Positions 4,094 to 26,103 of a stretch of 26,103 nucleotides of DNA are shown here, in pieces. The translations under genes and the position numbers were made by a program. Below the pieces are notes generated by a model. The model had not been told where the DNA came from, searched no databases, and saw only the letters and a list, made by a program, of their open reading frames with translations. The stretch's first letter is position 1. Each line of letters begins with the position of its first letter. This DNA comes from a virus. The DNA lies in the IMG/VR virus record IMGVR_UViG_3300041016_000764, positions 1 to 26,103 of that record. The stretch is one strand, 5' to 3'.

Positions 4094-4678
4094 ATGAAGT
4101 TAAGTCAAATAAAGCAGAATCCTAAAAATCCTCGTGTAATCAAAGATGAGAAGTTTGAGAAGCTAAAACAAAGCATTGAGAATTTCCCCGAGATGATGTC
4201 TAAACGCCCTATGGTGTGCGTAACTGATACCGATGGTAAGTTATACCCACTTGGAGGAAATATGAGGCTTAAAGCACTAAAAGAATTAGGCTATGCAGAT
4301 ATTCCCGAAGCATGGGTGACACTGGCAGATGATTGGACAGTAGAACAAAGACTTGAATTTACTATAAAGGATAATGTAGGCTTTGGCGATTGGAACTTTG
4401 AGGAGTTGGCTAATGAGTGGGATAGTGAGCAATTAGGGGAATGGGGTTTGGAAGTGCCAAGTTTTGCCGCTGATATTGATTATTCAATCTTAAACGATAG
4501 TGATGTAAAAGACCAATTAGAAGACATGGCAAACGGTGTAAAGAAGGCTATACAAATAGAGTTTGAGGTAGAAGATTACGAGGTAGCAAAAGAGTTGGTA
4601 AAGTTTTGGCGTGAACAAAAGCTTTATATAGGTGGTTTTATGATTGAGAAACTAAAAACTGAAAAGGATAAATTATGA
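4094..4678 (+). CDS. ParB-like N-terminal domain protein
   Basis: Protein of 194 residues resembling phage ParB/sulfiredoxin-fold proteins. Early NPR (residues 12-14) and the box GGNMRLKAL at 54-62 correspond to the conserved G-x-x-R motif. Next comes the segment found in phage members beside packaging or methylation genes (IKDNVGFGDW and WGLEV, about 91-121). The C-terminal 60 residues are an acidic/basic helical tail. Such proteins bind and sometimes nick DNA or hydrolyse nucleotide; whether this one is enzymatic is unclear. It is first in the packaging operon behind a late-type promoter and overlaps the oxygenase gene by 4 bases (ATGA), so the two are probably made together. Confidence 0.75.
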   Translation: MKLSQIKQNPKNPRVIKDEKFEKLKQSIENFPEMMSKRPMVCVTDTDGKLYPLGGNMRLKALKELGYADIPEAWVTLADDWTVEQRLEFTIKDNVGFGDWNFEELANEWDSEQLGEWGLEVPSFAADIDYSILNDSDVKDQLEDMANGVKKAIQIEFEVEDYEVAKELVKFWREQKLYIGGFMIEKLKTEKDKL

Positions 4679-5445
4679 TACGATTAGATTTAAACCAAGT
4701 GCAACATACTAGAAAAGTAGGCGAACATTGCGAATATATTGAGCCTAATGTAAAAGACGATTGTGTATTTTATGCCGATGGTGTACCAGTTGGCTTTTTT
4801 ATGCGCTCAATGCCTGAAAAGGCGTCTAAGCTTGCAGACTTAGCAAATAGTGAGTTAAGAAGTAAGAATGTACCCAAAAGTGAAATGGGTAGAACATCGG
4901 GGCAAAAAGAGGGCGCAAATTCAGTTCAACAATACAGCACTATTATAGGAAGCGTACCGCCTAGACCTCATAATAGAAGACCATATCCAAGTATAAGCAG
5001 CGTACACCAAGTTAAAGGGGCGCAAACTTTTATTAAGGCTATGTTATTACTTGTAAAAGAAAGCGAAAGTATTATACATGATATACTACCTGAGCAATAT
5101 AAACAGCAAGTAGAGTTATTTAAAAATGTTCCTGATAAATGGAAGTTTGGCAACTTATTTACAAGCTCTATTTCAAATTACAATATTGCGGCAGCTTATC
5201 ATCGTGACGCTGGCAACATAGAAGGGGCTGTTAATGTGATAATCACTAAACGCTTAAATTCAAAAGGTGGTTGTTTGAATATTCCCGACTATGACGCAAC
5301 TATTGACCAATGCGACAACTCTATTTTAGTTTACCCTGCTTGGAGAAATTTACATGGAGTTACGCCAATTATTCCTACCTTTGAAGGCGGTTACAGAAAC
5401 AGTTTAGTATTCTATCCTTTGAAGGCTTTTGTTGGTTTAGATTGA
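4675..5445 (+). CDS. TET/JBP-like 2-oxoglutarate Fe(II) oxygenase
   Basis: Protein of 256 residues. The C-terminal half has the double-stranded beta-helix signature: H176-R-D178 (AAAYHRDAGN), a GG followed by a short strand at 198-204, H227 (NLHGV) as the third metal ligand, and R241 (GYRNSLVFY) as the likely 2-oxoglutarate-binding arginine. The HRDAGN form and the LHGVTP segment recall the TET/JBP branch, whose phage members oxidise 5-methylpyrimidines in DNA. The N-terminal ~110 residues are less conserved, with a proline- and arginine-rich stretch near 95-104. It sits between a ParB-like gene and terminase genes, as inferred for packaging-linked DNA modification. No methyltransferase is in this window. 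Other 2OG oxygenases remain possible. Confidence 0.65.
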   Translation: MIRLDLNQVQHTRKVGEHCEYIEPNVKDDCVFYADGVPVGFFMRSMPEKASKLADLANSELRSKNVPKSEMGRTSGQKEGANSVQQYSTIIGSVPPRPHNRRPYPSISSVHQVKGAQTFIKAMLLLVKESESIIHDILPEQYKQQVELFKNVPDKWKFGNLFTSSISNYNIAAAYHRDAGNIEGAVNVIITKRLNSKGGCLNIPDYDATIDQCDNSILVYPAWRNLHGVTPIIPTFEGGYRNSLVFYPLKAFVGLD

Positions 5446-25260: not shown

Positions 25261-25587
25261 ATGCAAATAGGCAATAAAGTATTTTTAAAAGAGGCTATCC
25301 AACTTGTGCCAGTAGGTGCGAGTACACCACGAGGTGCAGACCTCAGAACATTTGACAAGGGTAGCGAGTTTGTATTAGTAAACATCGAAGGCGAAAAAGC
25401 AATAGTAAAAGACGAGAGCGGCAACTTTTGGAGCGTTTTAATTGGCTTCTTAGGACTTGTTCAGGAGGTTAGCCAAGTAAACCAAAACACTACAATCGGC
25501 GAAGGCTTGACAATCTTACAACATATTAGCAACTGGTTTAAATCGCTTGGTAAAATCAAGTTTAAAAACCCGTTTAAGAAAAAATAA
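25261..25587 (+). CDS. Small SH3-like protein with cationic amphipathic tail
   Basis: Protein of 108 residues. Residues ~30-70 (KGSEFVLVNIEGEKAIVKDESGNFWSVL) look like a compact SH3-type barrel. The C-terminal 25 residues form a basic amphipathic segment (ISNWFKSLGKIKFKNPFKKK) that could bind membrane. It is the last gene of the head operon and 3 bases after the previous one. A lysis or membrane-acting role is conceivable from the tail; this is inference. A structured non-coding stretch follows. Confidence 0.5.
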   Translation: MQIGNKVFLKEAIQLVPVGASTPRGADLRTFDKGSEFVLVNIEGEKAIVKDESGNFWSVLIGFLGLVQEVSQVNQNTTIGEGLTILQHISNWFKSLGKIKFKNPFKKK

Positions 25588-25598
25588 AGCGCATTTTG

Positions 25599-25848
25599 AA
25601 ACCTTTTTTAGGTTTGTGTGTTTAAGTAAATTCAAACACAGTACTTCCAAAAGTATTGTTTCGATGGGCGGCGGTCTTGATATTGTCCGTCTGTTGCGAG
25701 CCTACAAGATTAGGCAAGATCTCGACAGTAGTTGTTACTGCTACACACGAAGCAGACTAAACAGCAGCTCTTACTTGGATGCGCTCCCATTAAGTAACCA
25801 CTCTTATAAAGTGCATAAACCCGCTTGTTTTAGGACGGCGGGTTTTTT
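25599..25848 (+). ncRNA. Structured non-coding RNA ending in a terminator
   Basis: No convincing gene fits here, but the sequence folds readily. Hairpins: AAACC/GGTTT (25599-25615); TGTGTTT/AAACACA (25617-25640); GTACTT-CCAA-AAGTAT (25641-25656). A larger domain is closed by ATGGG (25664-25668) with CCCAT (25786-25790). Inside are GGCGG/CCGTC (25670-25691) or, as an alternative, GTCTG/CAGAC (25689-25757); CGA/TCG stacked on GCCTA/TAGGC (25697-25724); and CAGTA/TACTG (25726-25740). It ends with the terminator at 25817-25848. Its 5' end may be processed from the head-operon transcript, as no promoter was seen. No known RNA family is recognised. Confidence 0.55.
25817..25848 (+). terminator. Intrinsic terminator of head operon/RNA
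   Basis: ACCCGC at 25819-25824 pairs with GCGGGT at 25838-25843, with AA before and TTTTT after. It is the only strong terminator after 25587, so it probably ends both the head operon transcript and the structured RNA before it. Confidence 0.8.
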
Positions 25849-25872
25849 ATTTGAAAAAATATGAGAAAATGT

Positions 25873-25901
25873 TTTGCAAGTTGAAAACTTTTGTATCTTT
25901 G
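25873..25901 (+). promoter_or_regulatory. Promoter before second terminal RNA
   Basis: TATCTTTG at 25894-25901 is a perfect -7 box, and TTTG at 25873-25876 lies 17 bases upstream, slightly closer than the usual 19. TTGAAAA at 25881, thirteen bases before the box, is at the same spacing as TTGAAAAA at 4052 before the box at 4065. TTGAAAAAAT at 25851 also matches 4020. It directly follows the terminator at 25817-25848. Confidence 0.7.
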
Positions 25902-25907
25902 CCTTGC

Positions 25908-26103
25908 AATTGAATAAAAAACATACGAAATTATCGATTAACCAAAACGCTTTAATCTCATGAAATAGTATCTTAGCGGTCTAATGCGTACCCCAAAAAG
26001 TCATTCGTAAGCCGCAAGCGTAATTAGGCGGTATCTAAAAAGAAATAAAGTAATAATAAATATCAGATAAAGCCCTTCACTACACAAGTAATGAGGGGCT
26101 TTG
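25908..26103 (+). ncRNA. Probable small RNA or long leader, second terminal RNA
   Basis: About 195 bases lie between a promoter and a terminator with no frame longer than a few codons (the best is 8 codons at 25984-26010). Stems seen: GATTAA/TTAATC (25936-25957) and CTAATGCG (25981-25988) with CGTAATTAG (26019-26027). The terminator at 26069-26103 ends it at the window edge. It could be an sRNA or the regulated leader of a gene beyond the window. The 5' end is estimated from the -7 box. Confidence 0.45.
26069..26103 (+). terminator. Terminator or attenuator at window end
   Basis: AAAGCCC-T-TCA at 26069-26079 pairs with TGA-G-GGGCTTT at 26092-26102, with small internal bulges. The T tract, if present, would continue past the window. 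It may be the end of the second terminal RNA or an attenuator for a following gene. Confidence 0.6.

Follow-up and report, generated by a model that had tools for sequence, protein, structure and literature searches.

A non-coding stretch behind the structural genes of a tailed phage is probably a folded, fast-changing operon tail

The non-coding stretch that follows the structural genes of this phage is probably the 3' untranslated tail of the late structural operon, made up of a hairpin after the stop codon, an intrinsic terminator and, between the two, a fast-evolving structured spacer. Read along the DNA, the parts are a stop codon, a short hairpin, about 190 non-coding bases predicted to fold, a terminator, a promoter-like site and the leader of the next transcription unit (Table 1). 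The whole looks like an ordinary, fast-changing operon end and not like a new RNA machine shared between phages. The initial annotation had gone further and proposed a dedicated phage RNA (a regulator, packaging RNA or decoy). While its structured, non-coding, plus-strand stretch ending in a terminator stands, the dedicated class does not, given that one relative is without the region and another clearly keeps only the first hairpin and the terminator. A conserved multibranched class of phage RNA is thus not supported.

The window, by which we mean the whole stretch of DNA analysed, is a virus record of 26,103 bases with the gene set of a tailed phage, including genes for a ParB-like protein, a TET/JBP-type oxygenase, a Terminase_3 large subunit, a tape measure protein and a head protease. 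Immediately ahead of the terminase (window 4094-5445), the ParB-like protein lies beside the TET/JBP-type 2-oxoglutarate oxygenase, a pair that suggests modified bases in the phage DNA. The last gene of the structural operon ends where the initial annotation had placed its end, and its protein product has no family match in Pfam or PHROG. Searches via the portal, the terminase, the last gene and DNA patterns led to only two IMG/VR phages that hold the post-operon region, IMGVR_UViG_3300027720_000001 (G001) and IMGVR_UViG_3300050196_000201 (L011), whose versions of the last-gene protein share 62% and 71% amino acid identity with that of the window, respectively. No relative holding the region was found in species genomes, nor among GenBank phages by DNA or portal protein; a GenBank match to L011 spans its promoter region only. 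One further match to the pattern of the first hairpin (L023) was set aside as chance, since it falls within a long gene of a phage that is G+C-rich and unrelated. As to the host, TAnnTTTG is the -7 box of sigma-A promoters in Flavobacterium (PMC9723704), and promoter-like sites of this type in the phage and its relatives point to a host among the Bacteroidota.

Table 1. Coordinates of the operon end and its surroundings in the window
Feature	Position	Strand	Basis
Last gene of structural operon (108-aa protein)	25261..25587	+	Open reading frame
Hairpin 1, directly 3' of the stop codon	25588..25622	+	Conserved at L011:5308-5342
Variable middle, predicted multibranched fold	25623..25816	+	Pair probabilities
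Intrinsic terminator, AAACCCGC ... GGCGGGTTTTTT	about 25817-25848	+	Read from sequence
Bacteroidota-type promoter candidate, TTGCAAGTTGAAAACTTTTGTATCTTTGC, -7 box TAnnTTTG	25874..25902	+	Sequence
Leader hairpin upstream of next gene	26049..26103	+	Conserved in both relatives

Support for an operon tail comes from L011, in which the last gene precedes a matching series of parts, at the same place and in the same order: stop codon, hairpin, a variable middle of about 140 bases and terminator. Hairpin 1, with outer arms AGCGCA / TGTGTT and inner arms AAACCT / AGGTTT, is significant in both phages (z -3.5 in the window, -4.8 in L011), and its innermost pair is U-A in the window and A-U in L011, which amounts to one compensated pair in two sequences only. 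The terminator has a G+C-rich stem that leads into a run of U downstream of the last gene. It is plain to the eye, and over 45 bases it is 82% identical to its counterpart in L011; a simple consensus terminator scan did not list it. The middles of the two phages, on the other hand, show a weak sequence relation (their best local alignment score was reached by 13 of 2000 shuffles), and that of L011 folds like its shuffles, with a z of -0.32, or -1.2 for a shorter cut. Hairpin 1, the middle and a terminator of the kind in Table 1 are all missing after the stop codon of G001. Because the tail is absent there and its middle has diverged in L011, the tail is optional, with a fast-changing centre. 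Short matches of the tail RNA elsewhere in the genomes of the relatives stay at chance level.

What follows the tail fits the same reading. A promoter-like site stands after the terminator in both the window and L011, and in G001 such a site (TTGCAAAATTATCTATCTTTGC) starts about ten bases 3' of the stop codon of the last gene and is followed by a leader hairpin common to all three phages and then by a gene for an M15 peptidase, probably a lysis enzyme. The candidate in the window has a spacing of 17, just outside the scan used, and was matched at one mismatch. From 25350 on, no promoter upstream of the tail was matched within one mismatch, as expected if transcription reads through from the operon. 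Hairpin 1 and the terminator would together fix where the structural mRNA ends at its 3' side and protect that end; they would also halt the polymerase ahead of the next promoter and shield it from read-through. The middle is presumably a spacer that changes fast and folds, though its precise structure is not conserved. Such insulation cannot be essential, since G001 does without the hairpin, the spacer and this terminator.

Several features further downstream were seen along the way. The shared leader hairpin (AGTAATAATnnATATCA ... AAAGCC ... GGCTTT) recurs at L009:645-699 and L011:5723-5777, and its copy in the window is 82% identical to G001:3944-3998 and 75% to L011. It resembles a terminator placed in a 5' leader and is perhaps an attenuator; the gene behind it differs, being the M15 peptidase in G001 and one for a protein without a Pfam match in L011. 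Between the terminator and this leader, L011 carries an additional promoter-like site (TTG-18-TATCTTTG) and, some 80 bases on, another terminator-like hairpin (L011:5543-5660), together a candidate small RNA gene that is absent in G001. At 25951-25968 the window has TTTAATCTCATG, the same 12 bases that in L011 (7960-7971) lead up to and take in a gene start; in the window they run straight into AAA TAG, which makes this either a frame of two codons or what is left of a lost gene.

The folding of the region is real but moderate. Over 25588-25850 the predicted energy is -79.3 kcal/mol, against a mean of -62.5 for dinucleotide shuffles (z -3.35), so the initial annotation was right to expect a fold better than shuffled sequence. 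With the terminator left out (25588-25823) the z is -2.87, a value undercut by 2 of 220 tiles of equal length cut from the two strands of the window; the complementary strand of the same piece gives -0.2. There is, therefore, a moderate folding tendency that is specific to the plus, transcribed strand, and this bias again suits an operon tail. Within the middle, 25623-25776 gives a z of -2.2, and local hairpins are predicted at 25638-25659, 25700-25715 and 25738-25755. In the preferred fold, 25599-25615 forms a hairpin, a multiloop is enclosed by a 14-bp helix (25616-25629 / 25771-25784), and a closing helix (25591-25598 / 25807-25814) and the terminator complete the structure. A middle this long and this well folded (z about -2.2 to -2.9) exceeds what a plain 3' tail needs, and counts against our reading.

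The individual stems listed at the outset fared less well. While all of their sequences are present, most have near-zero weight in the fold ensemble: pair probability is high (0.74-1.0) for GTACTT/AAGTAT (25641/25651) and GCCTA/TAGGC (25700/25711) only, it is 0.1 for CGA/TCG, and it is close to zero for TGTGTTT/AAACACA (25617/25634), ATGGG/CCCAT (25664/25786), CAGTA/TACTG (25726/25736) and GTCTG/CAGAC (25689/25753). The abundance of perfect stems had also been held unlikely by chance, which proves to be a weak argument, since the count is at most mildly above that of shuffles. There are 23 perfect stems of at least 5 bp where 16.8 are expected, a number reached by 14 of 200 shuffles, and stems of 6 or 7 bp are as frequent as chance would have them.

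Known RNA families and coding sequence do not account for the region. Rfam covariance models gave no match at the gathering score and nothing credible at E up to 10; RsaJ and AaHKsRNA41 came up with low E-values and were rejected, as their scores fall well short of the gathering cut-offs and come from stems that resemble terminators. A AGAGACUAAA motif in L011 resembles the P7 element of a group I intron, but no Rfam intron model matched and this candidate was dropped as well. ARAGORN found no tRNA or tmRNA gene in the window or in L011; tRNA genes do occur in relatives: G001 has four, one of them called with an unusual two-base anticodon, and G004 three (L003:3321-6235 and L026:6236-9754). 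A reading frame conserved across the region, which would have spoken for a gene, did not turn up in either relative: the open frame at 25547-25864 that overlaps the tail has no counterpart in L011, and G001 lacks the region.

Among the other explanations, the one that survives best is a phage small RNA derived from the 3'UTR, either processed out of the structural mRNA or made as a transcript of its own, whose stable, terminator-ended fragment would pair with phage or host mRNAs. Structure, an intrinsic terminator at the end and the plus-strand bias would all suit such a molecule, as would a position typical of small RNAs derived from 3'UTRs, and a precedent exists in CisR, which comes from the 3'UTR of prtV and acts on a CTXphi mRNA (PMC13250501). 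We nevertheless consider it unlikely, for no promoter was found upstream and the middle is not clearly conserved in L011 and is absent in G001. Somewhat less likely still is a spacer born of chance or decay, perhaps a broken small gene or tRNA, with a fold that means nothing. The small excess of perfect stems, the shuffle-like middle of L011, the missing region in G001 and the tRNA genes elsewhere in relatives are what such a spacer would predict; a z of -2.87 without the terminator and on the plus strand only, a conserved hairpin 1 and the lack of any tRNA-model match even at E up to 10 are not.

Another alternative makes the region a two-state RNA, in which the 5' segment AGCGCAUUU pairs either with the nearby UGUGUU, forming hairpin 1, or with GGAUGCGCU (25777-25785) further away; this distant arm can itself pair with AGUGCAU (25810-25816), which adjoins the terminator. 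A switch of this kind could tune termination or mRNA decay. All three pairings are present in L011, where two extra pairs are inserted on both sides of the distant helix, and the states lie a few kcal/mol apart (about 2 to 6) in both phages, with the -79.3 minimum followed by -76.8 and -73.7 in the window and with -62.1 and -60.3 in L011. However, when the whole middle is scanned for it, each distant pairing taken alone comes out near chance level (88 and 161 of 2000 shuffles), the 3' hairpin falls short of significance in L011, no pairing arm overlaps the terminator stem, and the pattern was found after the fact in two sequences only. We regard it as improbable, and think no better of the chances of a bistable, phage-specific 3'UTR RNA, confined to a small set of Bacteroidota phages, that would be released as a small RNA or would switch termination or the decay of the mRNA where structural genes meet lysis genes. 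A phi29-like packaging RNA would likewise be structured and sit in a phage after the head genes, but it is very unlikely indeed because G001, with a terminase 90% identical to that of the window, does without the region at this place, and, furthermore, the large terminase belongs to the Terminase_3 family, presumably not to the gp16-type ATPases of phi29, and Rfam gave no match.

What the region means depends on which of these readings holds. As a structured operon tail and nothing else, it would have little import beyond the annotation of an uncharacterised phage group. If, on the other hand, a stable RNA is made, Bacteroidota phages, in which RNA has to our knowledge been little studied, would have a small RNA of their own where the structural genes give way to those for lysis.

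Among known systems, GOLLD and ROOL are large structured phage RNAs (Rfam), and the tail resembles them as a structured non-coding stretch in a phage genome; unlike them, it is shorter and is not conserved as a whole in relatives, and the window has no match to them at the gathering threshold or at E up to 10. With 3'UTR-derived small RNAs such as CisR, which acts on CTXphi (PMC13250501), it would share a place at the end of an mRNA and a predicted structure that closes with a terminator. The closest likeness is to a plain late-operon end with an upstream 3'UTR hairpin and an intrinsic terminator, where a stem-loop and a U run follow the last structural gene and a promoter-like site comes next. 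The operon tail of this phage departs from that plan in what separates its hairpin from its terminator: a folded spacer that changes fast and, at about 190 bases, is unusually long.
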